Shown: positions 3,301 through 47,690 of the stretch, piece after piece
Numbering within the stretch: position 1 is the first letter of the stretch
Layout of the letters: each line of letters starts with the position of its first letter
Position numbers and translations under genes: made by a program
The notes under the pieces: generated by a model
What the model was told of the DNA's origin: nothing
Databases searched by the model: none
What the model saw: the letters and a program-made list of their open reading frames with translations, nothing else
NCBI RefSeq assembly: GCF_000003815.2
Contig: NC_049985.1
Span: 2,237,645-2,301,644, forward strand
DNA length: 64,000 bases
Source of the DNA: Branchiostoma floridae
Lineage: Eukaryota; Chordata; Leptocardii; Amphioxiformes; Branchiostomatidae
Reading direction: 5' to 3'

Positions 3301-5258
3301 ACGCATACATTCATGTGCGTTGTACCATGGGACTGGGTGTTATACCACAATGAGTTCACCGGGTTTTCCTGGGGTGCTTGGCTTGTAGTTATAAGCCCCT
3401 TAAGAATTCCGTATAATTCGTATCTTTCCTCGAAGGATCGTATTAATTCCACAAAGTTCATAATATGGATTTATTGAAACCTGTATGAATACTTATTAGT
3501 AAGCATCTTTGATACAGTTACTAGTACTTGTTTTGAGTTGGGTGACACTTTGGGATATGACACAAGATGTAGAAATATGATTTAAAAAAAGAAAAGAAAC
3601 ATGTACGACACATAAAACAAATTATTCTTATTAATCTATGAAGTTCATCTAGCGTTCTGTTACGCCATGAGTGTCATGTGACATATAAATAGTTCTTATT
3701 CTTTCTCCATTGCTCATTCATTCACTCATTCACTCACTCATGCACTCACTCACTCATTCAAACACTCGCTCACCGTCGCTCACTCTCACTCACACTCTCA
3801 CTCACTCACTCACTCACTCACTCACTCGCTCACTCACTCAAGACGATGCAAAAAACTTTAAAGTACAACAGGTGAAATATTCCCTTACCCGTCGAGTAGC
3901 GCCACGTAGCTTGGCCTGACGGGGTGAGGGTTACCAGGATAGCAGCACGTTGCACTCACTCACTCACTCTCACACACTCTCTCTCACTCACTCATTCACT
4001 CTCACACTCACTCACTCACTCACTACTATGCACAAAACTTTATGGTGCAACAGATGAAATCTTACTCGTCAAGTAGCGCCACGTAGCTTGGCCTGTCTGG
4101 GTGAGGGTAGGATAGCAGCACGTCGTACGGAGCAATGTGCGCGGAGTCCAGGCCCTGATCCAGCCAGGTCCGCCTCACGTAGTCCGCCAGGTCATGCCCG
4201 TCCTGAGTTCCTGCCATGTGGGGCTTCTGGGTCAGGATCCTGCGGAAAGTGAGATTTGAAAATTGATCTTGAACCCGAATTTATAATGGTTTATTCAAAC
4301 ATATTCAAACATATACATAGGCTATGAACTAATGAGAGCAACCTTCCACTGTCCGTGACAAATTCCTCTAGCTATATATTTTCAACAACTTCAATGAACA
4401 GTACCATTGCAATGACCGAGTGGGTAGAGTGTTCGCCTTGTATTCTTTAGGCCGTGAGTTCGATCCCTGGCCGAGTCATATCAAAGACTTTAAAAATGGT
4501 ACATACTGCTTTCTCTGCTTAGCACTCAGCATTCAGGAAAGAGTATGGAAGTTGAACACACACCACTACCAGTGGACTAGCCCCCTGCTGTAGTGATTGC
4601 ATTGTGTGGCCACTGAAACGGAGATGGGCACCGCCCTATGCGCCATCAGGCGCGGGAAGGAACTTTGACTTTTACAATGAACAGTTGGTCATGTCCTTCA
4701 GTACAGCATTGTTTTCTTTTAAAAAAAGAAAGACTAAAACAAATCAAATGGGTGTGGCCATAAAATGTATTTAGTCACAAGGAAAACATTTGCATGGCAT
4801 CCAATGTTAGGTTTTTTGTTCTCTGACGGGGTGACAATATTACTATCCTACCACACTTGAAAGACATTCAACTTTACCAGGGTTAGGGTTTAAGGGTTGG
4901 GGTTGGGGTTGGGGTGAGGGTTGGGGTTGGGGTGAGGGTTGGGGTGAGGGTTAGGGTAGGGGTTAGGGTAGGGGTTAGGGTTTAACTAAGGTGTTAGGCC
5001 AAAACATCTAGCATCCCTGGCTTCCTACGACGCATTTTGCAAAGATTAATGCTGTGGAACTTTTCAGACAGTGTTCACAGATACAATATCGTCATTTTAA
5101 CATTAACGTTGAGTGTTTTTCTTTTACCTCAGGAATTCCTCAATGCGTGTTGAGTTCATCTCGCCTCGAAGTTGGGCAGCCCAGTCTTGCTGTGCCAGCA
5201 TCCCGCCAAGAAGGTAGCAAAACGTCGCAAGAAGAAGAAGCTGCCTTCTTGTCGTCAT
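255..5258 (-). CDS. FOLH1-like: Glutamate carboxypeptidase II (FOLH1/NAALAD)-like gene, 5' part
   Basis: Zinc metallopeptidase family M28B, which removes C-terminal glutamate from substrates such as N-acetyl-aspartyl-glutamate at the cell surface. Exon 1 (5258-5128) starts at an ATG and encodes MTTRRQ, then a hydrophobic stretch LLLLATFCYLLGGMLA that is either a signal peptide or a type II anchor, and ends with MNSTRIEEFL. Exon 2 (4239-4066) joins in phase 2 and encodes ILTQKPHMAGTQDG followed by GLDSAHIAPYDVLLSYPHPD. This closely follows the family pattern of a 'PHLAGT' block and a 'DVLLSYP' block just before the protease-associated domain. Two further exons (1467-1425 and 396-255) are tentative but fit in phase. 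The PA, zinc-binding and dimerisation regions lie beyond the left edge, so activity cannot be judged. Family assignment is firm for exons 1-2; the exact paralogue is not. Confidence 0.72.
397..1424. other. Putative intron with an unresolved exon-like segment
   Basis: AT-rich sequence in its left two thirds. At about 1044-1140 the minus strand has a good acceptor (ttattttcag) followed by about 90 GC-rich bases open in all three frames. No donor or family match was found, so it is not called as an exon. Confidence 0.3.
1425..1467 (-). CDS. FOLH1-like: Tentative exon 3 of the FOLH1-like gene
   Basis: A 43-nt stretch ends in a good donor (CCACCG followed by gtaagt). Entered in phase 2 after exon 2, it reads CENENKQSPPPDPP. 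In FOLH1 the block after DVLLSYP is followed by an acidic stretch and then a proline run, so position and character fit. The acceptor (acacaag) lacks a polypyrimidine tract, which is the main weakness. It ends in phase 0, which matches the start phase of the next tentative exon. Confidence 0.4.
2437..2520. repeat. (CACA)n-rich simple repeat
   Basis: A run of ACACAC/CCCACACAAACG units. The open frames across it on both strands are low-complexity His/Thr or Val/Cys artefacts. Confidence 0.8.
3092..3300. mobile_element. MITE family A, copy 1
   Basis: A non-coding element of about 210 bp with long imperfect inverted ends. The left end reads TTTAGTTCAC..TTATCC and the right end GGTTACCCGC..AGGTGAACTAGC; inner arms pair AAAACAGGGTAT with ATACCCTGTTTT. 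Four related copies lie at 7397, 15242, 19833 and 24655. Transposition would depend on a transposase elsewhere. Confidence 0.6.
3708..3840. repeat. (TCAC)n/(TCAT)n simple repeat
   Basis: Tandem CTCACTCA repeats with scattered variants. They form the left flank of a duplicated exon edge; a second block of the same repeat follows at 3952-4023. Confidence 0.9.
3841..3951 (-). pseudogene. Duplicated 3' edge of FOLH1-like exon 2 with its donor site
   Basis: This segment repeats the last roughly 60 bases of exon 2 and the first bases of its intron (compare 4025-4135). Both share the core GTAGCGCCACGTAGCTTGGC and end in a usable minus-strand donor (gtaag). Only the exon's 3' end is present, with no acceptor, and (TCAC)n arrays lie on both sides. 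It is a non-functional copy that keeps a decoy donor in the intron. Confidence 0.75.
3952..4023. repeat. (TCAC)n simple repeat, second block
   Basis: Tandem CTCACTCACTCTCACA units between the duplicated exon edge and genuine exon 2, probably the substrate for the local duplication. Confidence 0.85.
4402..4676 (+). mobile_element. tRNA-derived SINE, full-length copy
   Basis: The head carries Pol III promoter-like boxes: box A near GACCGAGTGGGTAGAG and box B near GAGTTCGATCCC. The body contains a GTACATACTGCTTTCTCTGC block and ends in GGTGGCACC-type sequence (here GATGGGCACC) and GGAAGGAACTTTGACTTT. Related copies occur at 14980-15110 and 23716-24341, and a palindromic double head at 18042-18318. 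Confidence 0.75.
4878..4985. repeat. Telomere-like G-rich array
   Basis: About 100 bp of degenerate GGGTTA/GGGTTG/GGGGT units inside the first intron of the FOLH1-like gene. It resembles interstitial TTAGGG sequence but is too degenerate to mark a chromosome end. Confidence 0.7.
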
Positions 5259-7396
5259 TGTGTCCTCCTACTACAGCAGTTAGGTCTCCGCCGGTTCTTT
5301 GTCTTCTGGCAAAACTTCAACTTGAAGATTCTATAGACTAAATGACGTTAACGTTATACTATATGAAGTTACCGACTGTGAGGTTTGATCCACTCTCAGG
5401 ATCGTGATGCTAAGATCAACAAGTTCCTCTCGCCGCTTGCACTAAGCACAGAACTACTGTTTTATCTCTTATCTTGGTTTCATCGGGATGTACAAACAGG
5501 ACACAAAGTCTGGTTTGTGTGGATTTTGGATTCAAAATTCCACAGTTACCATAGGGCTGGACAACAGAGGGCTGATACAACATTACTATCGCATAGTCAA
5601 TGTTGACTTTTGTCCTTACACAAGATTATAAACAACACTCCAGCACACAATTGGGACTTCATTTGGTCGGACGAGTAGCTTTCCTTCAAAATTCATAGCG
5701 CATTTCATGTTTTTTTTCTCACTCCACTTTGCCAAATAGGCCTCTACTCGTCCAGTCTTGGCAAGTAAATGTAGTTATATGTTACGGACTTTGATTTTCA
5801 TCTGTCTAGTCTTTCGGGTCCTCCTTATATGACATGACCTACTTCTTGAAATATCAGACGGAACAAAGGTTCTAAATCCCCCGTTAAGAATGAGGTTTGG
5901 TTCAAAGTCGCAGGGATCGAACATAGATTCAGTTCAAAGGGCTTGGAATCAAACGAAGGATCAGTTTAAAATTCAAAGCTGACTCAGGTAATATTGAGAG
6001 CAGTTAACAGCAACATTTACATTCGTTGAACTTCCTAAACATAATATTCACAAAGAACAGCCAACACACATGTATAAAGTCGCAAACAAACAATATATAA
6101 ACAAGCACATATACCTTCAAAGGTTAACAGGTGCATGGTGTTTGCAATCGGTTTTACATTTCTGTCATTTGTCTGAATTCATGAGATTAAAAAATATAGC
6201 ATAAAGTTATTATGACATAAACCTTACTGTATTTGATACTACATGAATTTTTGATAGCCATGTAACATTACATGAACATTATGATTACAAAAACAGTCAA
6301 CAATGTGACGAGAAAACCAGTCAAATACAGGTACAGTTTTAATCATCATCATATAATCTCAATACATATTGCACAACATGAACCATAAATCTGACAAAAT
6401 GTCAACATGTGAGTAAACTACAGTTCCACATATCTTCTCGTCTAATCTTCATAGAGTTCTCACAAAAATACATCCAAAAATAATCATGTACGTTTGACGA
6501 TACTCAGTTTTTTTATATTTTCTATAGTACGCCAAGCATAAGATTAGTGGAGTATTACTACTAGTGCAGCATTCTAGCACAGAAACTGATGATTGTTGTT
6601 ACGTACGATCTCACTTCACTGAGAGTTTTTTTTGTTCACAACTTAACCAAGCTATCATACATCGTTCATTTCACTAACCTTACATCTTCGGTTTCATCAC
6701 AAAGCAACGCCCCCTGTCTCTCCTAAACTGCAATGCTCTAGTCACTTTAAAGGAATATAGCCAGGTCAATATTTATATAGTGACAACATATACCAATATA
6801 ACATGTATGCATGGATACTGCATATCAGAAGATATAATTATTATCATATATCTGCATCAGGGAAAAGAATGCAATCTTACAGAATCACTAGTTCTACTAG
6901 TCCTGATCCTGATTAGAGTCTTTGTCAACACTTGACAAGGGCTCAACCAGGGTTGTAGCCAGCACCTGTTCTTCCGTCTTTTGACGGAATTTTGCAGCTG
7001 GGGACGAAAAAAAAATTTTGCCCATTCCATCCTCCGTGAGCAAAATTTAACCCACAAAATGCAGGAAATATTGTTTCAGAGGGTCTAGATTTCAAAATTT
7101 TCCTTGGGAGTATGCACCTGGACTCCCCTAGGAACGCTACGCCAAAGCCATTCAAAATTGAGGGGACGGAAAATGATTTCAGGCTGGCTACAACCCGGGG
7201 CTCAACCAGGATGCTCGGAATGCGTCAAGGTGGTTTCCCATCTATAACTTTCAACTCAATCCACTTATTGACATGAATCGGAGTTGAAAAGTTCTGACTG
7301 TCTCCATATCTTTCAAGTAATATCTTTAAACTTACAGGCTCCGATTGGGATCTTTACTGACTGACTTGGTTAGATAGCAATCTCTACTGTGACATC

Positions 7397-7615
7397 TAAC
7401 GTTAGTTCACCTTTATCCGTAGGGTAACCTTTATCCGTTGTATATAAAAATAGGGTATTTTGGGATCGTTAAGTCGATGGAAGGTACTTTCACATTGCAA
7501 TATTTTGAAAATGTGGACATTTGAAACCCACGTCGTTGACCTGAAATCTCTAAATACCCAGTTTTTAAAACAACGAATATAGGTTACACCGCGTATTGAG
7601 GTGAAATAGCATTAT
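7397..7615. mobile_element. MITE family A, copy 2
   Basis: The left end TAACGTTAGTTCACCTTTATCC pairs loosely with the right end GAGGTGAAATAGCATTA. The inner arm AATAGGGTATTT pairs with AAATACCCAG. Length and layout match the other copies of this family. Confidence 0.7.
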
Positions 7616-8242
7616 ATCTGTATCTATCTATCTATCTATACTTTCTAGAGGCACACTTTAGCTGCTAGAACAAGCATCTATGTCTGGTACTGACATAAAG
7701 GTAAGACATTCAGGAAATATTGCATAAGCAATTAACAGTCACCAACGTAACGGAAGCCAGCGGATACTGTCTGAAATGCCTGACCACTTCTGAAACTTAT
7801 CCAGTTGCTTGAGTAAGTTTTGCTTTACGAATTGAATAGCCTTTTTCCTGATAATCAAACTACAACCCTGCTCTTATGCTTTAGATGTACCAACAAGTAC
7901 ATTCCCACATCATCTCTCACATATAAAACATCGTGTAAAAAACAAACCATACAAATCACAACTACATTGTTTCAATGCACCGATTCGTAACAAAGACATC
8001 ATAATCTTTTTGCGTTATATATCATGGCAAGATTAATGACATGGATGGCAACAAAACATTTACCAGTAAGCCATAAACTGTAATACTATACTTATAACTG
8101 TAATCCGTAAACTGTTATACTTACAGTCGAGGATATAAACAGAAACACATCATTCACATCTTTAAGCTTTGGTTGATAGCAAAAGTTAAAATAAAACTGC
8201 TTACATTATCAGACCAGGAAACTGGATGGTTCCTTCACCAGG

Positions 8243-8590
8243 ATGCTACATGTTGTATACAACAAACCTTGGTGGGAACACACAACAAACAAACAACTGT
8301 ATGGGACTCTTCCATCTATTTCAACTGAAGTCAGGCGACGCCGGTTAAGCATTGCTGTTACTCGACATGGCAAACCAGCCGGTAAACTGCTCTTTTGGTC
8401 CCCAGAAGCAAATAGGAGAAGAGGCCGTCCATACCTCACGCTAAAGAACTTTATTGAATCAGCGATTGGACTATAGGATAAGGACCTCATTGAACTGATG
8501 AAAGATTGAGTACACTGGAAGCAGAACTTTGTCAATGTTTCAATTCGAGAAAGAGTATGAAAATGTATGTATGTATGTATGTATGTACAT
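8243..8590 (+). mobile_element. 3' tail of a non-LTR retrotransposon (relic)
   Basis: An open frame encodes HTTNKQLYGTLPSI, then RRRRLSIAVTRHG and RRRGRPYLTL. This is the usual C-terminal tail of RTE/CR1-like LINE polyproteins after the reverse transcriptase. A stop follows at about 8474 and the frame degenerates after it. It ends near a (ATGT)n run at 8564-8586, as many LINE 3' ends do. Only the tail survives, so it is a 5'-truncated relic. Confidence 0.6.
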
Positions 8591-9790
8591 TCAGAAAGAA
8601 ACTGAAAATTATTCACATTTTCTTCAGTGGGACAATTACTGCACTTTCTCATATGTAAAACTCATATAGAGTCAGATAGATATTAATACTTCTTTTCAAT
8701 GCAACAATTTTTTATGACTGCTTGGAACAATTGATAACTAGCATTTTGAATACTGTTAAATGAGTTTGTTATATCAACTGTCTTGGCTATGGAATTGTTT
8801 TCCTTCTAAAAATCCAACATCTGATAATTTTTCCTATATGACTCAAATATAATATCATTTCATCTTATGTACCTGCTATTGTCATGTATTTAACTTCTTT
8901 TTTTATCAAGAATGTATGAAAGAGGAAAAGACATTTTAATGATACCACAGCCTGTAAAATAGAATGTTTTTGGTTTCATTTTGTCTAGAAAAAAATCCTT
9001 CTACAAAATAGCCAGAGTTACTTGTAGAGCCTTCAAACGGAATGTTTCCATACGACATAAAAATCTGTCCAAGACTTTTGTTACAATGTACCTAAAAATC
9101 CCAATAACTTTAATACCTAATGAGGAAGTCTTGTGTGTCAAGCATAAAAAGTCCCCTGAAAATAAGCCCAAATCCAGAGGAAAATCTCAGCAAGCCCTCA
9201 AAGTTTCATCTCTTTGGTGGATGCAACAGTTGATATTTGTTAACTCTCCTGCTAACATCTTGTAAACTCTAAAGACCTAATTATAATAACTAGCCTATGA
9301 CTAGGTCCATTTTCAATTGTGAATAGCTAGCTAATGGTACATATAGTAACATTGGTCACTTCAAAAATGTTGGAAAGTCTCTAAGAATTTGGAAAATCTA
9401 TTTCAACCTAGACTGAGATTTTTTGTTCCCTGGGAAGAACCGTAACCATAAACCAGTTAAAATTCCTAGTTGCAGAATGCACAGTTACATTTTACATGTA
9501 AATTGAAAGAGATTCTCTCTTCTTCCTACATGTACCTTTCACAGATGTACAGGTTCAACTTTTATATCAATGAAATCTTCTAAACACATTTGTACTCTTT
9601 CTTTCTTTGACATCGTTGGTGTTTAACATTCTTTAGTGGGCTCCTGTCTTGTGACTGTTTTTGGAATGACTTTTGAGCAAATTCCTAGCATCAGACTATC
9701 CAAGATCATAACTGGTTCCCTGTCTCCCTGTATGGTATTACTGAATATTCTACATTTGGTCCTACATTTAGAACAATGTGAGGCTTAAGT

Positions 9791-10014
9791 AGGGCTGTCC
9801 CCAGGACCTGTCCTTCTGTCCCAGCACGGAAATTTGCTTGTTGAGATGGACAAAAATTTCCATCTGTCCAAAAGCTCTGAACTTTACAACTTGAAACTGA
9901 TGAAAATGCATTTTTGTATGCTTGAAATGACAGATTTAACAACCAAATTGACAGCATATTGGCTCTTTAACAATGAGTGGAATAGAAAAATTTTTAAAGC
10001 TGGAGACAGCTCTG
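9791..10014. mobile_element. Foldback element with AGGGCTGTCC ends
   Basis: Bounded by AGGGCTGTCCCC on the left and GGAGACAGCTCT on the right, imperfect inverted copies of each other. A related element lies at 17753-18061, and fragments of the end occur near 26562 and 39645. Confidence 0.5.
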
Positions 10015-11351: not shown

Positions 11352-14300
11352 TCACAAACTGTGTTGCGCTGCGTGTCCCGCCGCCGGCTGCGTAACGCTG
11401 GCGACGCTGCACGTCTGGCCGTCCCCGCCCGACCACAGCAGGTAAAGCAGCACCAAGGACAGGGACAACAGCAGCACCACCAGCAACTTCTGTAGGCGCA
11501 GAGTCTGGGAGATGTTCTCTTCCAACCGCTGGGACGTACTGGAAATGGCACCAACCTGAAGATAACAGAATATAGTTAGACACATTTGATACCTCCAGAC
11601 TAGCTGTAGACATCATCTGTGGCATCAAATGGCTGAGAGGCTAGGCTAGAGGCTTCTGTATGCGCAGAGTCTGGAAGACGTTTTCTTGTAACCGCTGGGA
11701 CATACTGGAGATGGTACCAACCTGAAGATACCAGAATATGTTTAGACACATTTTATACCTTCCTACGGTATGGGAGGACCTAAGGTAAGGTAAAGTAAGA
11801 CTAGCTCTGTGCATTATTAGAGGCTAGGTTAGGGGCTCAGGGTCTGGGGGAGGGTCTCTTCTAACCACTGGGACGTACTACAAATGGTACCAACCTGGAG
11901 ATACCAGAATATGCTTAGATACATTTCACAGCTCTAGACCAACTCTAGCCATCACTAGAGGTTAGGCTAGGGGCACAAGATTGAGAGGTTCTCCTCCAAC
12001 TGCTGGGATGTACTGGAAGAATAGTGTAAAACAAACAAACAAGACAAATAGAAGTAAACTGAAAGGGATCTTACCGTCTGGGTGAGTTCTCGGACCTGTT
12101 TCTGCAGCCGTGCCATGTCTCCCTGCGGCGTGGCCTCCTGAAGCTCGGCCGCGTCGGGGGTCAGGTGGGCGCATCTAAGTCTGGGGATCGGGAGGGGAGC
12201 AAGGAACATATATAGTCCTGTAGCTGTTTAATCAGCAGAACTGTTGTCATGCTGAATCAACAGGCAGATATTTCCCTGTAGGTGCCTCCTCTCCTCTTTA
12301 TAAATCAGATGCTAAACATCAGTTAGTGATATAATAGGATATGATTTTGGAAATGGGCAGATGCTTCAGGTGATGCAGAGTGGGTTGAAGAAAGGATACT
12401 ACTTGAAACGTCTGACCATTTCCAAAATCATATCGATTCAGTTGCTTGAGTAACTGCTTTTTGGCATACCTCATTTCCTGACCTTCATTGACTTAACATT
12501 TCTTATACAAGTAGCCCCTATTACCATATATCATACATACATGCTTCAGGCCTCCCTTGCACTGTTATATCTCACTATATTTTTCTGTTACGTATTCATA
12601 AACATTTATCAAAAAGATGATACATGAAAATAAATAAATTCTACATGTTTTTCATTGCAGACCCTTGACTTGTGTTATGCAACTTGTCCCTAACCTGTGC
12701 TCCATGACGGAGCCCTTGGCTGCAGACTTCCAGAGCGCGGCCAGCTCTGCCGTGTTCTTCACCTCCTGCTGAACCTCCATGGACAGAACCAGGAACTTGT
12801 CTCGAGGTGTGGAGGCCTGATGACCTAAAGTGGTGTTCAGAATATAAATCAGATTTTATTTTATGTCACAGTTTTAAACCTTAAATCTGTACACAAAATA
12901 AAGCGCTTACCAATAAGCGCTTTTGATCAGTCTTCTGATTCTTATCAACTTGAAATGACCCAAAGCCTTTGTCACACATCCAGACTGGTATTGGGCTCTG
13001 CTGTAAGTGGCCTCTTTTGTTCCCAAGAAAATAATCCTGTTCAGAATCCAGTATCTTCACCTTGGGTCATTTCAACTTGATAAGGACCAGAGGACTGATC
13101 GAAAGCTTGTTGGTAAGTGATTTATTTTGTGTATGGATGTAAAACTTAAAATTGTGACGTGATGTTGACTACCATCGCAGATGAATTTACATTTGTTTAT
13201 GATAACAGATTTTATTTTGGTTCAGCTTATAACATGATACTCTCACGCACAAATTAAAGGAACTTGTCACGAGGCGTGGAGGCCTGTGACCTTGAGTGGT
13301 ATCAGAATAGAAGAAATCAGATTCTTTATAATTGATATAAAAGTACAAATGAAAGGCCACAAGTCGAGGAGGCTTGGTGACCTAAAATGGTGTTTAGAAT
13401 AGAAATCAGATTTTTTTCTTAGTTATTAGAGTAGTATCCCTGGTCAATCAGGATTTTATTCTTGATTTAACGTGCTGGCACATTACATAGGTGGCTTGGA
13501 GCCAGCTTGGTTTCAACAAAAAGGACCATACAATTCGTACAAATACTATACAGTAAATACAGAACATCCTTGTATACACTGCCAGATATAATGCAATGGG
13601 ATACCATCCCATCGTCAGAAATTGTGACTAACCAGGCTGTAGAAAGACATTGACGTCCACAGACACTCCTGGTGCGATCGGCCCCGAGCTGGGGCGCACT
13701 CGGTACTTCTCAGGCGATGTTGTCTTCACCTAACATTAGACACAGATGGAAATCTTTGTTCAATCTCAAGCTAATGTGGATGGACAAATTCAAAAATTGT
13801 CTTACTTTATTTCTAGAATTCCATTTGTCAAATTGACTGTAACAGTTACTATTCTTTTATGGGCAGTTAGGGTAAGATGGCATTTTATATAGGGTTAGGG
13901 TTACAGGAATGCCTTTAAACCTGCAGCCTCAAATTGGCATCATCAGAAAGAACTCTCGGGTCTGTACTTCTGAGCTGGAAACTGTTTTCAAAGTACTTGA
14001 TTAGAAATCCCTTTGATTCCTTATCTACACAGGACAAAAGCTACTGAAGCAACTAGATAACAGTAACAGTCAGACATTTAGCAGATGATAGCAGATAACG
14101 TTTAATCTAATATTGTTTAATCTGTGGACATTTCAGGTCCTGATTATCTTTTGTCAGTGACTTATTATCTGTATGCCTTACCTTGAAAGCCACAGTTCCG
14201 GCCGTTGTGTTAGTGAGAGTCAGAACCTGCTGCACCTCAGCACCCTCCGCATTCACAAACTCCAGCACATCCCCTGGACTGAAGGGGGGACAGCATGGTC

Positions 14301-34882: not shown

Positions 34883-35044
34883 GTTGGTCATGCGATGTTG
34901 TCGGTCAAAGGTCACCCGGAAGTCGGGTCGTCAGTGGCGGGAAACACAAGATGTCAGCTGATGACTAGGTCGTGTGAGGATCTTGCTCCTTATTTTCCTA
35001 CTTAATAGCGCAATAGTGCGACATAACCAGCTCATTTTTTCACC
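34883..35044. promoter_or_regulatory. Bidirectional promoter of MOSPD2 and FANCB
   Basis: Only 162 bp separate the two start codons, so both genes must initiate in this region or just outside it. The MOSPD2 ATG lies in CCAACATGGCGGAAGT on the minus strand, which combines a YY1-type core (ATGGCGG) with an ETS core (GGAAGT). A second ETS-type site CCCGGAAGT is at 34915-34923. GGCGGGAAA at 34936-34944 matches an E2F site, as expected for an S-phase repair gene. No TATA box is evident. Motif calls are by eye. Confidence 0.75.
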
Positions 35045-38000
35045 ATGGCGTCTCCAAGACACCATCTAGTTTCCTACAAAGGCTTTGTTGTAGAATTTTG
35101 CGATGAAGTTGAAAATACGACACTGGAAGGAACTGTGATCCAGGCCAGGGTTTTCAAGATGGACAGGACCACAGGCAAGTTTGTACAAGTATGTGTGGTT
35201 GACAGTCCTGAAGTTGGACAGCTTCACATCATAACAGCTAACTGTGTGTGCGAGGAGAGCACCGGATCCATCCTTCCATGCGTTCTTTTCCGTAACTGCA
35301 AAGGAGACTCTGGCTTTCCTTGTGTGTTCCAAGCAGCTTTTCTGACAATGGATGGGGACGATGCAAAACTCGTGACCGGTCCAGGAATGTCAGCATCACA
35401 CCGCATGTGTCACAGCAACGTCCTAAAGACCTTCCAGCTCCTACCGGGACCTCGGATTGCGTATCGTTACCATGGAGACCTATGCGTCGCCTGCGACAAA
35501 CAGAACACAGGAACATTCCAACAGCTGAAGATCGCTACGTCGACCTTCGACCCGCTATGGTGGGGAAAGCTGGGAAGGACACTCGTTGCCATGGGAACGG
35601 AGGCATGCTCAGCATCACCTGATCACCAGATGGAAACCGAAGAGGAGATGGTCACCGACCTTGACCTCATCTGGGGTCACAAGTGGATGTATGTTGCCAT
35701 GGAAACCAAAGATGAAGAGTGGAAGAAAAGGGACGGTAGCGTCTTCATTCCTCATCCGTATGCATGTGTGGCTAGGGCGATATGCCTGTTAGAATACAGA
35801 GTGATTAAACAGACAATAGATGGGGATAATCCAGAGCAGGAGGATGCTGATGTCCATCAATCACGTGTGCTGTTAGCGACCAATCAGGGGCAGCTGGTGG
35901 AGCTGGAGGATGGGGAGGTGAGGAGGATTTGTGAGCTGCCGTTTCAGGACCCGTCTGACGTGCGTGTGGCGTATGTCAGCGGAGGGGAGACAGTCGTTCT
36001 TGTGACGTCACCCACAGGAGGGGTGTGTGCGGTGTGGGGCAGCAGCTTCAAGGTACGGCTCAGATTTTTGCCGTAACATAAAGAAAAAAAGTATAGAAAA
36101 AGATCTGTCTGATCAGATTTAGTTCTCTGTGTATATCTGAGAGTAGATGTCAGCTCTGATACTTGCTCTATGATAACATCAGTTGGAGCAAATAAAATCT
36201 ACTTAAATGGTACCAAGGCTAATCTAAAGTTCAGCCCTAAAAATGACTAGGTATATAGGACAGTAAATTAGAACAGTAAATGTACTTTGGATGGATTAGG
36301 TGTATGATAAGATAAACAGCCTCTGGAAGTACTTTAAACTTAATGATCCAGAATTTATCTGATGTGTGATAGTTGTTCTTTTGCTCCAGCCCGCAGGCCA
36401 CTGGCCATCAGCCCACATGGCCCTGACCGACTATTTCCTGTCCCGTGGGACTCAGCAGGTGCTACTGCTATCTGGGAGTGGGGGAGTCTTTGATGGTTTC
36501 CTTCTCACTGATCTAATGGGCTACAACATTACCGATCAGGTGAACTAGCCGGTGTCTACACAGCTCAACTTTATTTTTGTGATCCCAGTTCCCTTTGATT
36601 AAAGAAATCCTGTAAAGATTGATTTTTCCATTATCATGTCTGATGTTTAATTTCTAGTCCAGTGTTTGAGTGCGGTTTATTCAGATTCTTATATTGCTAT
36701 ATCTTTACCCTTCAATTTTGTTCATCAAGTTGACAGAATGGTCTTACAATATAGTTAAGTAACATTTTTTCAGTCAGAGTGATGATACACAGCAAAATTC
36801 TATCAAATGACGGAATGACATTAGCTATCTAGAATTCTGATGTGTTGTTTGATAAGATATACAATTGTTTAAGTGTTTGTTGTAACTTTTTCCCTGGTAC
36901 CACTAACAGCAGGAGGAAGCTGAGGAGGAGACAGATGTGTCTACTAGTACAGACAGGAGTGTACCCATGCAGTCAGCTGTGCAGGCCTTACAAGCCAGGC
37001 TATATGTAAGGCTACTCCCTATTATGACAGGATATGAAATAAGTCAAACATTGCGACTGTGTATTAAAAAATGTCAATTCGGACCTCATACGGACTTCAC
37101 ATACATTGTTATAGCACCTTTTCCAAGGATTTTAACCTCCTTGCCTTAAATCTTTATGAATACTTAAATCTGGAATACTTTTTTAATGTGTACCTTTTTA
37201 TGTGTGTTAATCACAGGAGAGCCAGGCATCCCTGGAGGAGCTGAGGTCCCTGTCAGCTCAGAAGGACAGAGTGATCCAGCAGACCTGCACAGCTCTGAGA
37301 GCCATGGTGCTACAGAGTGGCCACGTTATGGGGCAGGCCGCTCTACCAGAGGATGTAAGCACTCCCTCCTACATGTATATCCTACCTCGCTATACTTTTG
37401 TTCTGTATGGTATAGACTCACTCACTTAATCACTCTCACTCACTCGCTGACTCACTAAGTTCCTCATGCTTGCTCACTCGCTCACTCATTCATTCACTTA
37501 GAAGTTACTCATACTTACACTCAGACACTAACTCTCTTACTCACCAACTCTCTCAGTAACTCACTTACTCACTCTTACTCTCACACTCACTCACTCTCAG
37601 TAACTCTCTCACTCACTCTCTTACTCACCCACTCTCTCAGTAACTCACACTCACTCTCAGTAACTCTCTCACTCACTCTCTTACTCACCCACTCTCTCAG
37701 TAACTCACACTCTCTCAGTAACTCTCTCACTCACTCTCTTACTCACCCACTCTCTCAGTAACTCACTCACTCATACTCTCACACCCACTCACTCTCTTAC
37801 TCTCACACTTACTCTCACTCTCTCAGTAACTCACTGACTCACTCTCTTCCTCTCACTCTCACTTACAGGTGCCATTGTCATGCTGGATAACACTGAAGGT
37901 TTAGGAGGTGAAATCTTCCATTATGCTGTATGTCCTTCTCTTGCAAGGTTGTCCCCATAGACATCATTCATAGCTTGGGAAAATGACAGCTCAGAGACGA

Positions 38001-40570
38001 CAGTATTCTACCAGTTTCGACTTTAATTTGTCTTTCTCAAGAAATCAAGGTTGTCCCCATAGGTTTCGTCCTTCCTTGTTGCTCCATTGACTAATTACTT
38101 TCCTCTTATTTATTGTGTCCCACTTGCAGCCCTCACTGGTGTGCCTGTACAATGGAAAAGGTTTTCCCCCCAGTCCTGACTTGATGCCCCCCTCCCCACC
38201 TATGTCGGACCCCATCACCGTTGTACGAGTCTGGCAGAGGCTGGTTCTGAACCAGTGGGTGGTCGGGCTGGAGATCAGCAACCAGTCAGACAGGTGGGGA
38301 TCTTAACTTGAAAGTTCATCTGTGTTGGTAGAACTCATTATTGGACTTTAAGTCAAACTATATTGGACTCCAATAGGCAGGGATCTTATGTTCCAATGGG
38401 TCCTTCCTGGTGTGAGTAGTTCAAAACTTACAGACCTATGGCCGCACCTGGGTCAATAACTGTCACCTGAGTTAGTGTCAAATGGCAGCTGCTTTAAGAC
38501 TCTTAAGATTTAGCCCTGCCTATATTAAGCTCCTCGAAATTCAGCCTCTGGCTGCGAGGAGAGAGTAGACAGCCCACCCAATAAGAACAAGCAATGCCCC
38601 TTCATTCTGACACCCCTATGTTAGGGTTAGGGTTAGGGGTAGGGGTAGGGGTAGGGGTAGGGGTAGGGGTAGGGGGTGTGAGAACATCAAGGATTTGGAA
38701 CATATGAGTGTAACTAAATAGGGATCTTGTGGTATCAGCATAGGCTATGCAAAATCTATTTAATGGAAGACATCTGCCCATGCATTGATTTTGACCTGTT
38801 TCTGAGATATTTTCTTTCAAGTGACATGCAACAAGAAATCACAGCTGCATTGACATCCATCTAACTTACCTTAAATCAAACAGTTTTCTCTACTGTTTGA
38901 AATAAACTTTCCCACATACAAATGTATTTTCCTTTTTTCCGCAGAACTTTGCAGGACGTACGCCTTGCCCTTGTTAGACACGAGGGTGCTGAAGCTGGTG
39001 CCATGAAGAGTTCAAGATGGAACAATGATAGCACATCTTCATGTAGAGTTGTTTCAACAATCCCTCCCGCAGTAAAACTAGGCTCAGAGACAAGTCATCA
39101 CTTCCAATCCAAGAAACTAAAACTGGACAAAAGTGTGCAACAAGATGTAACAAAACAGAATACTACACTAGTCTGTGTGTCCCCCATACCCAAGTTTGGT
39201 GCCCGCCCATCCTTACAATGTTCTTTACTCCTATCATGGAGAGAAAAAGAAGGGAGAGGTAAAGACAGTGAAGTGGAGTCCAGCTTTAGAGATTTCTGTC
39301 TGGATGTTGGGCATGTGAAGTTGTCCATTGATGACATTACCAACAGACATCTGACTGTGTTTGCGGGGGATGGCAGCAAGACTGGTAAGATCTCGCCTTT
39401 TTTTTTACCTCTTCAGATTCTGTAATCTTTTTCTGTAATTCAGTTTGTCTTTTGATGTTCTTCAGGACCCATCCTCCATCAATACAGAAATTTGCTGCAG
39501 TGGGAAAAATTCACCCCATTGTCAACAAAAAAATCCTAACTGCAAGACATGAAATTGATGAAAGTGTATATTATAAGCTTGAAATAGACATTTTCAAAAA
39601 TGTGAATTCACACAACATAGTCTCCCAAAACAATTAGTATGACTAGAGACAGCCCTTGTGTACACATAACTATTCTGTCTGTAATGCCTGTGAAATTTAC
39701 AGAGTAGCATAGAGATGACTAGGTTGTATAAACTCTTTCAAAAACATTTTTTTCACAGCTGACTTACAGAAGACAGACCTGCTGGCCCTCGAAGCTGTGC
39801 AGTCAGAAACAAGGTTAAAGGTGAGATGTAGCCATGGCAACCTCAGGCAGCTGCCTCAGATGTTGCAGAGCAAACTGGGATTCCAGGCTATCCCAGGCGC
39901 CCCTGGACTGTTCTGTGAGCGGCAGGGACCGCTGCAGTATGTGAGAGTCACCTGTACTGTCATCAGCAGAGCAGAGGCTGAGCTATCTGTTTGTACAAGG
40001 TGGGAGGATTTTGTAATTATGATAGCATTCATCTAGGTGTATTATTGCAGCCAGTAGGTTCCCAATCTGACTCTGAGTGTTGAGGCTGTTAAAATACAGT
40101 GGAAGGAGAAGGATGGATTCTGCCTACCAACACTGTTCCCTAGACACGGTGGATAACAACCCACTGCTTTTATAGCCTCAAAAGACTTTCGGACAACCTT
40201 ATCACTTGAGTCAGATATACATGTAAATGTCGAATTTTGTTCATCATTATCAGTACATATCCTATAGATGCACGTAGAGGAGCGATTTTGGTTCATTCAT
40301 TGCTTGCCTATGTAACTGCTCAGTTTAAAAGACACTGTGTGAATCACTTTTTTTTCTCTCTCCAGAGACCTGCCCCAGCTGTCTCTTCTACTCCACTCCC
40401 TGTACAGCCTCCTTCCCCGAGGAACAAAAGTCCTCCCTGATCTTCAAGACTCCAACATTAAGGAGGAGGTGGAAAAGTATGTGAAATCTGTGGACACTGA
40501 GCAGCCACACATGGGCAGCAAGCTCAGAACTTTACTACAGTGGGAGGGAGTGGAGAAGGAACAAGAGTGA
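35045..40570 (+). CDS. FANCB: FANCB, Fanconi anaemia core complex subunit
   Basis: In vertebrates FANCB binds FANCL and FAAP100 to form the catalytic module that monoubiquitinates FANCD2/FANCI at DNA crosslinks in the nucleus. Exons: 35045-36052, 36390-36539, 36910-37005, 37217-37354, 38130-38293, 38945-39384, 39759-39999, 40366-40570. All have GT-AG borders and phases join to 813 codons plus TGA, against 859 in human. Exon 1 holds 336 codons of the N-terminal propeller-like half. Family signatures are CELPFQDP (296-303), CAVWGSSF (328-335), DYFLSRGTQQVLLL early in exon 2, and VWQRLVLNQWVVGLEI in exon 5. Exon 4 is a coiled-coil-like helix (SLEELRSLSAQKDRVIQQT). Exon 3 has a tandem CAGCAG acceptor. 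The start follows TTTTTTCACC and is conserved in position. Identity rests on remembered human sequence. Confidence 0.93.
37417..37868. repeat. CTCACT/CTCAGTAACT minisatellite in FANCB intron 4
   Basis: Short CTCACT units grade into a higher-order repeat of about 60 bp built from TCTCAGTAACTC, ACTCACTCTCTTACTC and ACCCACTC. It occupies most of the intron. Confidence 0.85.
38617..38680. repeat. Telomere-like (GGGTTA/GGGGTA)n tract
   Basis: Three GGGTTA units followed by about seven GGGGTA units in FANCB intron 5. Similar tracts occur near 4878 and, shorter, 26588. They are probably part of a dispersed repeat rather than telomere scars. Confidence 0.7.
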
Positions 40571-41135
40571 TGCTTTCATACAGATGACAGGGCCTACAAG
40601 ACGTGTTGCCATCTGGCTGAATGTTTAGATTCATAGAAGTTAAAAGTTGATTTGCCGATGAGTCTGTCAGCTTGAAATGATACTTTTGTCAGTTATATTG
40701 TCAAAGTTCTCTCAATCACCACACAATTTGACAGATCAACTGATGTGCAGAGACCCCTGAGCCCAGCACAATGTGATGGGGTAAGTATTTTTGTGAAAAA
40801 TATGCTTGAGTCTCCTTGTTAATATTGGGGACAGGTACAAATGTACACCTTAAGCCCCTTAACAGGTGTCATCATAATGTAAAAATCTGTGTGGAACTGT
40901 GTCATAAGATGGTTTACTACTTGAATTTTATTGTTTCAATGTTTGTGGCATATACATGTGTAACATAGAAATTTACATTGTCATTTCCCAGAGTGTAACA
41001 TTACTGTCTAAATGTCTTCACTGACAGGTTATATTGGCAAAATATGTACAGGTGTGTTATGTTGTAGACAGTTACTTGGGTTTGGCAAAAAAACTTTTCT
41101 ACATTCAGTGTGCTAGAAAAATAGTACAACTCTAC

Positions 41136-41141
41136 AATAAA
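41136..41141 (+). terminator. Candidate FANCB polyadenylation signal
   Basis: AATAAA, about 570 bases past the stop codon and the clearest such signal in the next kilobase. Confidence 0.45.
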
Positions 41142-42853
41142 TATATTTACTCTCAACAGAAGTCTAGCTTCCTACATGCATCCTCATTGGATAACTTAAG
41201 CATACAGATTTGAGGATCCTTAACTGAGTGCTCTTAATTCCACTCATTAGTGCTTATATTCACAAAAATATAGCATCTACATGTACTACATCATGCTTTG
41301 CATTATACAGTGGCATGGAAATCATGTCGACTTTTGATCAAAATATGCAAGAAAGCCACATTGTTGAAAAGTTTGAAAATTCAACTCCTATTGCAAAATA
41401 TATTGTATTTATGTTTGTGCACTATTTGTACATATCATTCATTTACATATTTGTGCCCATGATAAATGTAAATTTACTATATATTTATCATGTGTAACAA
41501 GACCTTTTCACTTCAATGTTTAGTTGTTACCTCCATGAAAAACGAAGGTATTTTCAAGTGTCTGTTTATGTTTCCAGATATTTGTGGTCAGCATAACTCA
41601 ACAATCTCTGGATGGATTCTGATGGTATTTGGCATGTGGGTAGGTAGGTTTGTTTGTGTGTGCATTTGTGTTTCCAGATATTTGTGGTCAGCATAACTTA
41701 AGAACCCCTGAATGGATTCTGATGCTATTTGGTATGCCGGTAGGTCTTATTTTTGTTTGCACTCTCCACTTTTGTCCCTCTTTATACTTCCACCATTGCT
41801 TTTCAGTTGAACTAGAAACACCTCAATATCAGTTCACCTCAATGAACATACATGTACAGTTTGTCCACCAGTACATCAACATTCAGCATGTAGCCAAATG
41901 TGTCGTCAGTCCACGTATGGCAGTGTTCTTGTCTCACCCCTAACCTGCTGTGTTCAGATGCTGTACATTCCGCATATGGTCAAATTGTCAAAGATCAGCA
42001 GGTAGTCAGTTGCACGCATCTTGTCGCAAAGGAAGATGACTTAAGGACCCATAGACACCTTGAAGGACATTATGACGACTATGTATCAACAGTCAGTAGT
42101 AGACATGTAGAGCTGTCTGGTCACAAAAGACTCCTAGGACTCATAGATACCTTGGAAAATCACCAGTACCATGCATATGGGGAAGAAATTCTCGCATGCA
42201 TGCATGGAAAAGACCTTAACCACCAAAAGATGTTGTTTCTCGTGAAAGTCCTGGCTTTGGGATGTCTCAGATTGTTTTTTTTCAAATCTAAGAGCTCTAG
42301 CATTGAAACTCCTGAGAGTACGATGCCATTGCTAAAGTCCAGGGTGTTCTGAAGCAGATGAGCGCCTCATACAAGGAATTTGTGCTTTTGGAATGTTCCC
42401 CTTAAAGAGTCTTCCAAGTTCTTCAAGCATGATTACAGATGTGAGAAATCAGTCCTTTAGAACCAGAACTTTCTGTTTTGTGAGGCACATTGAAGAATCA
42501 AGTTCGTTTTAAGATGGGAAAACAGATTCCTTCATAATCATATGCAGATGTGTCGTAGCCCTGTTAACTTTTGCTGTCAATATCTTGCTGTGGCTAGATA
42601 TTGAGACCTGGAACGTCTCCAAACATGTTTGTCTTTGTGAGGTTTTTGAGAGCCCAGCAAAATGAGACTATGCTCCTCAGAAACAGATGAGTCTGCCCAA
42701 CGTGTGGTAGCCCTGTTTGCTGCCTCTGCCCGTGTCCTTGAATGTCTTCAAACTTGTCTTTATCAACCTTAAGAGCCCAGCAAGAGGAGTCTATGTCTTC
42801 AGACGCACATGAGGCACCTCCTTAAATAGTCTTTTTCAAGAGATCACAGTCTT
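41142..42853. other. Convergent intergenic region after FANCB
   Basis: A two-copy tandem repeat at about 41560-41750 shares TTTCCAGATATTTGTGGTCA, GCATAACT and TGGATTCTGATG. A 150-codon open frame at 41900-42352 has no recognised family and no clear splice or start context. From about 42350 the sequence consists of diverged copies of the last exon edge of the neighbouring minus-strand gene. Otherwise nothing is seen. Confidence 0.5.
42540..42850 (-). repeat. Tandem copies of the 3' edge of the CNTNAP-type gene's last exon
   Basis: 42668-42735 repeats the end of the last exon and following 3' flank (42848-42920), sharing CAGCGTGTGGTAGCCCTGTT-like sequence and GCC-CTGTTTGCTG. A further diverged unit starts at about 42540 (GTGTCGTAGCCCTGTT). 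Recurring GAGCCCAGCA and TCAAACTTGTCTTT-like blocks mark a unit of roughly 150 bp. Confidence 0.6.
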
Positions 42854-45800
42854 TCAGAAGCATATGAGCCTGCCCAGCGTGTGGTAGCCCTGTTTGCTGT
42901 CTGTGTCCGTGTCGCCGAACCTGAGCTGTGTGACAGGCAGGTGTCTCTTGTGCATGAGCCAGCCGGAGTCCTCCTGCCAGCTGGCCAGCCCAGAGTCGCA
43001 CTTACAAGCTCGGCCTCCGCCACAGGTGCCTGCAAACAATGACAGTTGTACGTTTAAAGCAAACGCAGATTTGTGATCTATTTGGGGAAACCGAATTTTG
43101 CCCAATTTTTCAGACAAACTTTCATGTCGCATTGACAGTGGACCTTAAAAACATTCAATTGATTTGATTCACTCACAAGGGACAGGCTGTCAATAATTTG
43201 GTCATTCTTACTAAGGAAGGTGCTACCAAGAGTTCAGCAAGAGTTAAGATCGAAAGTTTAGACTTATTAAGTTTTATTGCATAAAGATAAATTGGTTTAT
43301 ACACATTCATACACATCATTTCTGTTGTGGAAGGCATCTTCTGAAGTAAAGATAACATTTGCCGTAGATGATAAGTATGTATACGGATTCGTTGTCAAAA
43401 AAGACACCAACTACAATATATTATAAAGCTCTATTTCTGTACACAAAGCAGAGTGCTCGCCAATAATCATTCGCATTTTCGATTTTTACAATATCAATGG
43501 CCATCAAATATGAACTTTCATTCAACATTACCTGCTTCTCCACACGCGCAGTTGTTTGTCCCGGGTTTCCCCCCTCCCCAGTAGTCCTTTCTCCGGCCGT
43601 CAGCTGACAACCACCAGGCGAACCCCGTACTGCCTCTGTGCAGGACCGAGCTCAGGCATTCATACTACAAAGATGAAATATTGCAGGGAATTACTTTGCA
43701 TCACACAAAGGTTCAGTTTTGCTAGGGTGTTCTAATGTTATTAATCTCAAATGGTGAAATGTTCCAAACCAAATGCTATTACCTTAGTAGATTAAAGGCA
43801 GTACAAAGAAGAAAATACGGCTTGAAAGTGGGGTAATATTCAAAAGAGTCAGTTTGATTCTGGAAAAACTGATCTCAGTTAATGTCTTTTACAATATTAC
43901 TCGTATCACACCTTCGCCTGGGTACCATCCTAACCCTTGGCTGGGTTCCGCTTTCCGCTTTTGGGGCATGGTCGGGCCCGGGTCCATTCTAACTCGGAGA
44001 TAAAATAACCCGGGATCTAATCGTAAGCACATCGACAGGTACCCCAAAGTAATCCGGCAGTCCAACGGGACAAATTTGTGGCTTCGGGGTGGGGCTACAG
44101 TCCCAACGACCACAGGGGCAAATGTGACCGTAATATTAAGCAAGCAAAAGGGGAGAGCCAACATACAGTAACTACGGACGACGGTACCCAGACTAATCAA
44201 ACCTTGCTGTTATGTAAACATTTGTGTAATCTCTTAAGCTGGAGACCAAAGGTCCATGTACGATAGAAACAGAAAACACGCCGCCACCGGTACCTTGATG
44301 AACTGCATACATCTCTTGGACCTCCTGATGACGGCCCGGATCTGCTCCAGGGACGTCCAGTAGGTGATGTTGCGGAAGTACGACCCGGGCTCCCCGTAAC
44401 CCTCCACCACCGTGCGGGACTCGCTGTCGTGCCCGAAAGACGACGCGACTAAAAACAATCAATACATAATGTTCACATAACGTTACATGTACGAGGTTAC
44501 ACCTGCGTTTGGTTCAAGTCTTCAGATAACAGTTTCCCTTGCTGGTCTTAAATACTAATATGATTAACATCGTTCGGGCCTCGTTGTCGTGCCCGAAAGA
44601 CGAAGCAACTAAAAACAATCAATACATAATGTTCACATAACGTTACATGTACGAGGTTACACCTGCGTTTGGTTCAAGTCTTCAGATAACAGTTTTCCTT
44701 GCTGGTCTTAAATATGTTTAACATAGTGCGGGCATCGCTGTCGTGCCCGAACGACGACGCAACTGAAAACAAGCAATACATGATATTCACATTCATGTAC
44801 GAGATTACAGATGAGTTTGGTTCAAGTCTTCAGATGACAGGTTTTTATTTTACTCGCAGTTCGTCGACACATTTAGCTAAAATGCCCGAATGTTCAGGAC
44901 ACCGGAAACATTCAATGCACAATAAACCATCATCTCATAGTTCTGAGCACAGATGTGGTCTCATATGAGCTCAATTGGCCTAGAACGGAATGAAATCGTT
45001 AGGATAATAAAATACAACGTCCGTCCCTACCTGCATCTCCGACGCGTTCACACTGCACGGGAGTCGGCGGCACGCCCTGTCCCGGGCCGTCAGGGTCTAT
45101 GGAGTAAATCTCTCCCGAACGGAACTCTTTCCCCAACGTCTCGGAAACTTCTGTGCAGCTGGCAGGAAGAACTGGAAGGGAGTAAATGATTTGATACATC
45201 TTTGGCAGGAATAATTTTCACAATAAATAATTTTACTTTCTTCTGATATCAAATTTCAATTTTGTTAATGTTGAATTTTAATTTTTGTAATGTCGAACGC
45301 CATTTTACTCAAATTTTAAAGTTTGAAATGCCGAATTTCAAATGATGGGCAGTGCAGTTTAAAGCATTACTTCACATGAAATGTAATAATGATCAAAGAT
45401 GTCCACATAAGCACATATTTGCTAATGTTATGTTATCTTGTTCAGCAAAGGGCGTGCCAGTCAATGTGAATAGAACTAAATCTGAATCTGCAAGTGCGTG
45501 GCTTCATAAAACTCAGAGATAGCAAGATTTAAATGAACACTACTGAAAAATGTTTTTGTCTAATACAATTACCGGTATTGACAAGCTTGTTGGAGAAATG
45601 CATACGAATGATGAGGACAGCTTTATTGCATGTCAAGAGCTGAATATTAGCCAAAGGTGATCATAAAATGTAGGAAGGTTGGTCCGTCAAAAATGGATGC
45701 ATGAGAGTCCCCACCATGACATGACTGACAGCCTCCCGATGACGTGTTCCACCCCGGTAAGTCCCTGCCCTGCGCCGATGACGCCGGTTCCCCGAGAATT

Positions 45801-47167
45801 CCCGACAGCTTCTGCTGCAGAATCCGCTGCGACCGCTCCATCTCCGAGTTCCTCAGCCTGAGCCCCTCCACCTCGTCCAGCAGCTCGTCCTGGTCGTGAA
45901 GCTGTCCGTAGAGTTGTTGAAGTTCCTCCCTCAGCTCGCTGGCTGACTTCCCGTCCAGGGCCAACAGGCGCTTCTCTCTGTTTGGGGTTGTGACGCCGGA
46001 ATCGTCTTCGCTGTCGTCTTGGTCCTGTACGTCTCTGGGCCCTATGATGCGCGGTGTGGTCGGGCCATGGTCGGGCTTGGAGGGTTTCTTACCCTTCCGC
46101 AGGGTTTCCATTTCCTGAAAAATATAAAAGTGATCGCATATGAAGTCATTGAACAGGTGAGCTAATCTTTCATTGGTCGTGACAGAAAAAAAATAGACGT
46201 TATGTAACGTATTTATAGATTATCTATCGGGCGAGGTTTTTCTTTCCTTCCTGAGGGTTTCGATTTCCTGTAAAAGAGTAAAAATCATCTCGGACCTGTT
46301 GATCTCAAATTAACTCAATGTTTTGAAATGAATAAATAAATAGATAATTAAGTTGTCCACGGCGTAATGTCCCGTCCTTAGGATTGCTACACTTTCCAGT
46401 AGCGTGAATGCCAGGTGAGCGACAACAGGCGGAAATCGAACTCACGACCATTGGTCCAGAGGCAGGGTCTCTAACCACTGGGCTATGCTCCCAACGTGGT
46501 AGCATGACATTTCGGCGTAAGGGCAGTTTGGCCTCTAGCCGAACAGGACGATTCGGCACTGGATCCAGGAAGACTCGGGTTATAGTTAGGATTAGGGTTG
46601 AGTTAAGGCGTCCTCTTGACAGTCCTAGGGCTGATGCCGCATCGTCCTGATCGAGTAGAGGCCGACCTGTCCACGACCCGAAAGGTCGGACAATCACGAG
46701 ACGCTTATTCCTATTTTCCCCTAACTATCGCAGAGTGGAATTTGTCATCACCAAGCACAGCAAGGGCATCTTCGCTAGATAGTTTTAAAGAACGCTTGAA
46801 GATAGATGGGCAAAAGTTGCGTCTGATAGGTCGTTCAGTGCAAAACAACCAGAAGCTGGCGTGTTATTCAAAAGGTCGGTGCTAGATGACAAAACAAAGA
46901 CGACAGAAAAAGGCCACGTTTATTCCTATCAACTTCTGCTTGGAGAGTAGGTTATAACAGCTATATTGATATAGATACGCGCATATGTACCTTTAGAAGC
47001 GCCTGGTTCTGCTGCTGAAGCCGCTTGACCTCGTCCCACAGCATGTTGGTGGGGCGGCTCTCCAGCGCCAGCACCCGCTGCTCCATGACGTGATGCGTGC
47101 TCTGCAGGAACTCGTTCTGCCGCCGCAGCTGCTGAACCATCTCCTGAACACCCTGCTGGTCCAAGAC
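42854..47167 (-). CDS. Coiled-coil protein with a CNTNAP(CASPR)-type C-terminal domain, 3' part
   Basis: Exons in transcript order: 47167-46991, 46114-45753 (donor tentative), 45158-45031, 44448-44294, 43664-43532, 43029-42854. They sum to 1131 nt, 376 codons plus TGA, in phase throughout. The first two encode heptad-rich helix (EMVQQLRRQNEFL, ELREELQQLYGQL, ERSQRILQQKL) with an acidic, proline-rich stretch between. The last four match the fibrinogen-related segment of contactin-associated proteins: IDPDGPGQG, HDSESRTVVEGYGEPGSYF with an NIT sequon, FAWWLSADGRRKDYWGGG, CACG, CKCDSGLASWQEDSGWL and LPVTQLRFGD. Cysteine spacing follows CASPR. The domain is extracellular in known proteins, so a secreted or type II membrane protein is likely. 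The 5' exons, including any signal or anchor, were not found. No laminin G or EGF modules are present. Confidence 0.8.
44410..44850 (-). repeat. Three tandem copies of an exon acceptor edge in the CNTNAP-type gene
   Basis: Units of about 155-160 bp start near 44410, 44571 and 44724. Each holds the 5' edge of the exon at 44448-44294 (GCTGTCGTGCCCGAA-GACGA), its acceptor and about 110 bp of intron (AATCAATACATAATGTTCAC, GGTTCAAGTCTTCAGATAAC). The first two are nearly identical, so this duplication is recent. Extra units contain the exon start but no full exon. Confidence 0.85.
46240..46290 (-). pseudogene. Short copy of the 46114 exon acceptor edge
   Basis: TTCCTGAGGGTTTCGATTTC here repeats TTCCGCAGGGTTTCCATTTC at the 5' edge of the exon that begins at 46114, with the adjoining intron CTG-AAAA-ATAAAAGT-like sequence. 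Confidence 0.55.
46400..46492 (-). mobile_element. tRNA-derived SINE head
   Basis: On minus, AGCATAGCCCAGTGGTTAGA (box A region) and GTGAGTTCGATTTCC (box B) are spaced as in a tRNA gene, but the acceptor stem does not close. It reads as a tRNA-like SINE head rather than a functional tRNA. Confidence 0.5.
46690..46900 (+). mobile_element. 3' tail of a non-LTR retrotransposon (relic)
   Basis: One frame encodes SYFPLTIAEWNLS followed by SSLDSFKERL. This 'FPRTI-x-WN ... SL-x-x-FK-x-RL' pattern is the usual C-terminus of LINE reverse transcriptases of several clades. Upstream domains are absent. Confidence 0.6.
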
Positions 47168-47690
47168 CTGCAGAAACAGACAAGGTTCACTTTACTCCTG
47201 AACCATCTCCCTAACACCTGCGGAAACAGACAAGGTTCCCTTTACTCCTGTCCTGAACCATCTCCTGAACACCTGCAGAAACAGACAAGCTTCACTTTAC
47301 TCCTGAACCATCTCCTGAACACCCTGCTGATCCAACACCTGTGGAAACAGACAGGGTTCACATTACTCCTGAACCGTCTCCTGAACACCCTGCTGGTCTA
47401 AAACCTGCGGAAACAGACAAGCTTCACTTTACTCCTGAACCATCTCCTGAACACCTGCTGAAACAGACAAGCTTCACTTTACTACTACTGAACCATCTCC
47501 TGAACACCTGCAGAAACAGACAAGCTTCACTTTACTCCTGAACCATCTCCTGAACACCCTGCTGGTCCAACACCTGCAGCGAAAGACAGGTTTCACTTTA
47601 CTCTCAAGGGCAGACACGACTATTTCTCTTGAACCATCTCCTGTACACCCTGTCTGTCTTACATACACCTGCAACAACAGGCAAGGTTCA
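47100..47690 (-). repeat. 65-bp tandem repeat seeded from a coiled-coil exon acceptor
   Basis: About nine units share CTGAACCATCTCCTGAACAC, CTGCTGGTC, CACCTGCAG and AAACAGACAAGCTTCACTTT. The leftmost is the genuine 5' edge of the exon 47167-46991, with its acceptor (ttctgcag). Each further unit repeats the acceptor, so the intron is a ladder of possible splice acceptors. Units differ by small substitutions and one carries an insert near 47610. Confidence 0.85.

Follow-up and report, generated by a model that had tools for sequence, protein, structure and literature searches.

Partial copies of exon edges in the introns of an amphioxus gene region resemble known mirages

Exons of three genes in a 64,000-base stretch of the amphioxus genome (here called the window; G000:C7:2237645-2301644) have one edge copied, once or several times, into neighbouring DNA. 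Probably these copies are mirages of the type already described in amphioxus, i.e. products of frequent short-range duplication that are retained where an intact exon remains. Mirages are tandem copies of exon-intron boundaries, named at the Adh3 locus and associated with somatic instability (cited in PMC3087553). The published accounts place them also in the globin genes BflGb6 and BflGb9, where RT-PCR suggests normal splicing (PMC3087553), and in the troponin C and PGBD5 genes (PMC3902484); they hold splice sites yet are described as leaving the mRNA undisturbed (PMC3087553, PMC3902484). As there described, units are 10-160 bases long, a single exon-intron boundary is spanned, 5' and 3' boundaries are both affected and splice signals are kept in many copies. 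The boundary, the unit length, the involvement of both sides and the retained signals are all found again in the window. The window cases differ from those accounts in that they lie in new genes, include some spaced pairs and are known from sequence alone. They extend the known amphioxus mirages to new genes, and mirages are a real feature of the lineage.

Exon edges in the window were fixed from open frames together with splice sites and were used with a margin of 10 bases; some are 1-2 bases off, which is still inside the margin. The start of a FOLH1-like (glutamate-carboxypeptidase-II) gene lies on the minus strand, with exons at 5128-5258 and 4066-4239 whose peptide matches glutamate carboxypeptidase 2 in the PDB (E 2.2e-14). 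No third exon was recognised within the window (1-5258 covered), and the gene may be incomplete, truncated or in possession of a long intron. Downstream of these two exons, near 1600, a further minus-strand gene might begin. A second minus-strand gene has 12 modelled exons between 11352 and 19751, and its partial protein carries CRAL_TRIO (7.7e-32) and Motile_Sperm (7.3e-24) domains in Pfam, a pair that is taken here to justify the name MOSPD2. Eight plus-strand exons (35033-40569) presumably represent FANCB, as judged by resemblance; a Pfam search with the first exons of this gene gave nothing. The MOSPD2-like and FANCB-like genes lie side by side on opposite strands (11352-40569); MOSPD2 and FANCB are adjacent on the human X chromosome as well. 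The third affected gene, at 42854-47167 on the minus strand, has six modelled exons and no match in Pfam or the PDB, the two collections searched. It is a multi-copy gene: a genome search gives 70 matches, of which the gene itself accounts for three. Beyond it, long single-frame open reading frames of similar sequence follow on the minus strand at 49043-64000 (e.g. 49043-51073, 55995-58055 and 59678-61258) and are presumably RING/B-box/NHL proteins of the TRIM2-like type.

Exons with copied edges in the window, and their copies
Feature	Position	Strand	Remarks
FOLH1-like exon 2	4066..4239	-	True donor at low end; PDB match and splice sites
Donor-edge copy of FOLH1-like exon 2	3808..3955	-	GT donor flanked by 67 columns of exon and 81 of intron; 82% identical
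MOSPD2-like last exon (exon 16 of the original prediction)	11352..11555	-	Pfam domains in partial protein
MOSPD2-like last exon, acceptor-edge copy 1	11653..11760	-	AG kept; 88% identical
MOSPD2-like last exon, acceptor-edge copy 2	11834..11954	-	AG kept; 81% identical
MOSPD2-like last-exon fragment, exon only	11983..12018	-	Without splice site
MOSPD2-like exon (exon 14 of the original prediction)	12696..12824	-	True acceptor at high end
Acceptor-edge copy of exon 12696-12824	13258..13332	-	81% identical
Acceptor-edge copy of exon 12696-12824	13368..13417	-	88% identical
Terminal exon, multi-copy gene	42854..43029	-	No Pfam or PDB match
Copy of last 57 coding bases and stop codon of terminal exon	42677..42736	-	Without splice site
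Second, weak copy of stop-codon end of terminal exon	42518..42578	-	65%; E 4e-4
Exon, multi-copy gene	44294..44448	-	True acceptor at high end
Acceptor-edge copy of exon 44294-44448	44568..44714	-	Identical at 105/106 intron and 35/41 exon positions
Second acceptor-edge copy of exon 44294-44448	44726..44843	-	83%
Exon, multi-copy gene	45717..46115	-	First base 46114 or 46115
Acceptor-edge copy of exon 45717-46115	46227..46289	-	76%; 91 bases from true edge segment
First modelled exon, multi-copy gene	46992..47167	-	No upstream exon located
Array for exon 46992-47167	47195..47715	-	Units of about 50 and 66 bases; eight decoy acceptors

Self-alignment, edge-by-edge alignment and the gene models agree that all seven sites named in the original prediction are genuine local duplications. 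The prediction had also held that the copy carries the splice site in every case. This is so at six sites (five acceptors and one donor), where the repeat spans a true exon-intron boundary as in a mirage; the seventh, at 42.5 kb, duplicates the stop-codon end of a terminal exon. The description of the copies as tandem applies to the sites at 11.5, 44.4 and 47.1 kb, where self-alignments overlap, and very nearly to that at 3.8 kb, which is almost head-to-tail, but the copies at 12.8 and 46.1 kb are spaced. A tandem-repeat finder lists the arrays at 44.4 and 47.1 kb, not that at 11.5 kb. In the 47.1 kb array the decoy acceptors fall at 47217, 47272, 47338, 47404, 47454, 47507, 47573 and 47668, nine acceptors with the true one. 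At 44.4 kb (44408-44714) the nearest copy loses identity to the true edge at the splice junction, the intron part being significantly more alike than the exon part (Fisher P 0.002), which suggests that the intron parts have undergone an exchange ending at the exon.

How does a gene tolerate so many apparent splice sites? The AG is kept in all 15 decoy acceptors of the window and the GT in the lone donor copy. With a splice-site matrix not trained on amphioxus, the decoy acceptors score near the true acceptors, and the donor copy at 3.8 kb outscores the true donor (9.1 vs 5.6). The true-acceptor score of the 46.1 kb exon is unreliable owing to a one-base offset, and two additional rows without AG in the decoy scoring are offset pattern matches inside copies. 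Splicing to a decoy acceptor, with everything up to the true exon left in, would in 14 of the 15 cases add a segment with stops in each of the three phases, and in the remaining one a 50-base frameshift. Since any of the decoys would thus shift the frame or introduce stops, a normal mRNA needs the choice of the site that bounds a complete exon, and exon definition would presumably account for that choice. In their best alignments, copies are on the intron side in all 16 edge families (six in the window and 10 in the outside sample described below), as is expected where insertions into the exon are lost. The suggestion that growth is tolerated only where one intact exon remains is well supported by both the placement of the copies and the consequences of retaining them. 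Families at acceptors outnumber those at donors (11 to 5, window and sample together), a difference that is not significant (P 0.21).

These observations can be accommodated by a simple scheme. Segments of some 40-200 bases would often be copied over short distances in the amphioxus genome, the spaced pairs probably, by resemblance to known duplications, through DNA-repair copying of nearby sequence, and the tandem arrays probably through unequal exchange or slippage. Where the copied segment happens to span an exon edge, the intron next to it would receive a normal-looking splice site that bounds no complete exon. Under exon definition, the acceptor and donor of the complete exon would then be paired, so that the copy stays intronic and drifts, and insertions that break an exon would be purged by selection. 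In this scheme the repair mechanism, exon definition and neutrality are what we infer. Local duplications that leave annotated edges alone are the commoner kind, as 7 of the 13 window families and 24 of 34 families in the first 16 regions of the outside sample span none. Among the two-copy families of this set, a gap separates the copies in five of seven edge families and in all 16 others. As most two-copy families are gapped, they are similar to the repair-mediated proximal duplications described in humans (PMC2671141). Vertebrate duplications of this type, together with the ‘doublets’ that the same account cites from Thomas et al., are also short, lie near the donor and sometimes carry splice sites (PMC2671141). 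In the arrays at 11.5, 44.4 and 47.1 kb, tandem growth appears to have followed later.

Some indication of age comes from paralogues. In two FOLH1-like paralogues, with 79 and 81% amino-acid identity to exon 2, 1001-base stretches around that exon (about 700 bases beyond it) yielded no counterpart of the 3.8 kb donor copy, which is thus probably younger than those splits. One FOLH1-like paralogue (L040 423-1001, G000:C6:21076700-21077700) has a diverged array of its own after the same exon, with 64-72% identity and the exon edge excluded. Paralogues of the 42-47 kb gene, with a best identity of 63% per exon, are too distant for dating its mirages.

Are copies of exon edges too frequent for chance, as had been proposed? 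The answer depends on what is counted. When every copy counts, 6 of 51 edges in the window are spanned vs 4.0-6.2 expected under coverage and shift nulls (P 0.31-0.53), and no excess is seen. When each family counts once, at a single unit length, those at an edge number 6 of 13 vs 1.7 expected (P 0.004), and within the gene regions of the window 6 of 7 vs 2.0 expected (P 0.001). Since only one segment of a k-copy array can be ancestral, the coverage and circular-shift nulls were not kept for the main test. A base-equivalence count (12 vs about 3 in the sample, 6 vs 1.7-2.0 in the window) was set aside as well, as it probably over-merges array phases. Within the window the distribution is uneven: mirages occur at 2 of the 23 modelled edges of the MOSPD2-like gene, and on the 14 modelled edges of the FANCB-like gene there is none. 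The window had been picked for the feature, so that a fair test comes only from outside it.

The outside sample consists of 25 gene regions of the same genome (513,431,437 bases in 431 contigs), with 146 exons and 292 edges taken from search rows. Sixteen regions (200 kb) cover chaperonin genes, cullin genes and two myosin genes, and the other nine (43.7 kb) each cover a kinesin gene. It is not a random sample, as every multi-exon chaperonin and cullin match is in it and the remaining genes were chosen by hand. Anchors were 54 of 60 chaperonin rows (six single-exon or isolated matches were left out), all 42 cullin rows (one of two overlapping matches, a copy, was then removed before counting), 9 of 142 myosin rows (two genes, added as batch filler), none of 13 rows from one further search and 42 of 134 kinesin rows (nine genes; one row running through many stops was omitted). 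Edges were set near match ends with the splice-site matrix. Two edges with long low-identity alignments, L021 8737 and L029 3674, are excluded from the final family tests and included in earlier ones.

Mirages were found in the sample at 10 of 292 edges and in 9 of 146 exons, as 10 families (six at acceptors, four at donors) in 6 of the 25 regions. The window is thus not peculiar, and a mutational process local to it, as originally put forward, is not what the data indicate. With independent placement within gene bodies, 10 edge families compare with 5.0 expected (P 0.009). Where the families of a region are rotated jointly and one random copy per family is taken, 10 of the 33 families in gene bodies reach across an edge vs 4.3 expected (P 0.006); among families of at least 80% identity the count is 7 of 20 vs 1.95 (P 0.002, joint rotation) and among those of at least 90% identity 5 of 11 vs 1.6 (P 0.007). 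The outcome changes little when low-complexity filtering is switched off or the cut-off is set at E 1e-5. Counted by gene, there are 6 vs 3.7 expected (P 0.12), and 5 vs 1.8 (P 0.015) in the younger set of at least 80% identity. The excess over random placement, which the original prediction proposed as a test, thus holds in this sample by family (P 0.002-0.006) and is not firm by gene (P 0.015-0.12). If real, it needs more than neutral copying.

Is coincidence, with local duplications landing at random and edges having no effect at all, then sufficient? This is a serious possibility, if on balance not the expected one. It draws on the all-copies count in the window and on the coverage null for the first 16 sample regions, where 12 of 208 edges are spanned vs 17-19 expected (two spurious edges still included). 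However, these nulls count all copies of an array, and the per-family expectation is two- to four-fold lower and is exceeded by what is observed.

Exon edges might instead be true duplication hotspots, e.g. through clustered breaks in transcribed DNA or an edge composition that aids strand invasion. This would supplement the explanation by short-range duplication and retention, not exclude it, and is unlikely although it deserves attention. It gains from the family-level excess outside the window, and the excess at 90% identity and above indicates that the edge families are not merely old copies preserved by a slowly changing exon. The by-gene excess is weak, however; four of the ten sample families come from one cullin gene, the nine kinesin regions have five families and zero mirages, the FANCB-like gene has none either, and no excess appears under the coverage nulls. 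Slower divergence of exons might by itself yield an estimated 1.3-2 fold. The data suggest a preference for exon edges of about 2-3.5 fold that rests on few genes and is not secure.

That the copies are functional, as alternative splice sites or as raw material for new introns, is very unlikely. Decoy sites score well, and globin mirages have been proposed as a source of intron gain (PMC3087553), but retention after the 15 window decoys shifts the frame or brings in stops, and the 3.8 kb copy was not seen in the stretches covered of two paralogues. Intron gain through duplication of a proto-splice site, as set out in PMC3087553, also produces duplicated splice signals within a gene; in the window, by contrast, it is the intron of an already existing boundary that receives the copy, and a new intron is not demonstrated. 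Least likely of all is an assembly artefact in which high heterozygosity leaves haplotype edges unmerged; some two-copy sample cases (L018, L021) are 97% identical, as might be seen between two amphioxus haplotypes. Against this, window edge copies are 76-95% identical, there are three to nine copies at four of the six sites, 37-200 bases is short for haplotype overlaps, and for the globin mirages support is reported from RT-PCR, trace data and a pair of haplotypes (PMC3087553).

What does short-range duplication with retention beside intact exons imply for the genome as a whole? A genome-wide count of amphioxus mirages was not found in the literature searched, in which subscription journals are thinly covered. 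In humans, 4 of 824 donors of proximal duplications are given as partial exon/intron (PMC2671141), vs 10 of 33 gene-body families in the amphioxus sample, figures that are not directly comparable as methods and exon density differ. A tentative and rather doubtful proposal is that short-range duplication in amphioxus favours exon edges as its templates, which would leave decoy splice sites beside several per cent of all exons and oblige splicing to ignore, as a matter of routine, decoys of equal score. If several per cent of exons do hold good unused decoys, amphioxus would offer a natural experiment in exon definition and intron gain. What most merits further work is the possible edge preference, and the quantitative claim can be tested in existing amphioxus genomes and RNA.

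Several individual constructs stand apart. A myosin gene (L029 4151-5433, G000:C10:21152000-21161999) has a very large mirage, in which an exon start and its acceptor recur in some 13 units, with identity of up to 96%; a unit has 100 bases and is itself a pair of near-50-base repeats. The repeated exon start presumably carries the P-loop motif. In a cullin gene (L021 4090-4574, G000:C12:3648200-3658199) both edges of one exon are copied separately, the acceptor at 97% and the donor at 89% identity. A kinesin exon (L030 588-1003, G000:C2:31967000-31972199) has two upstream acceptor-edge copies, 91-93% identical, both of which match the kinesin model; this region was chosen for a mirage that the search rows had already revealed, and it is excluded from all statistics. 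Two further repeats lie in the window. An array with units of 66 and 136 bases at 51420-52358, in which the 66-base unit has about seven copies at 51862-52351, is outside recognised exons. At 253-327, a 39-base repeat of 1.9 copies falls in a minus-strand open frame and gives an in-frame repeat of 13 residues.
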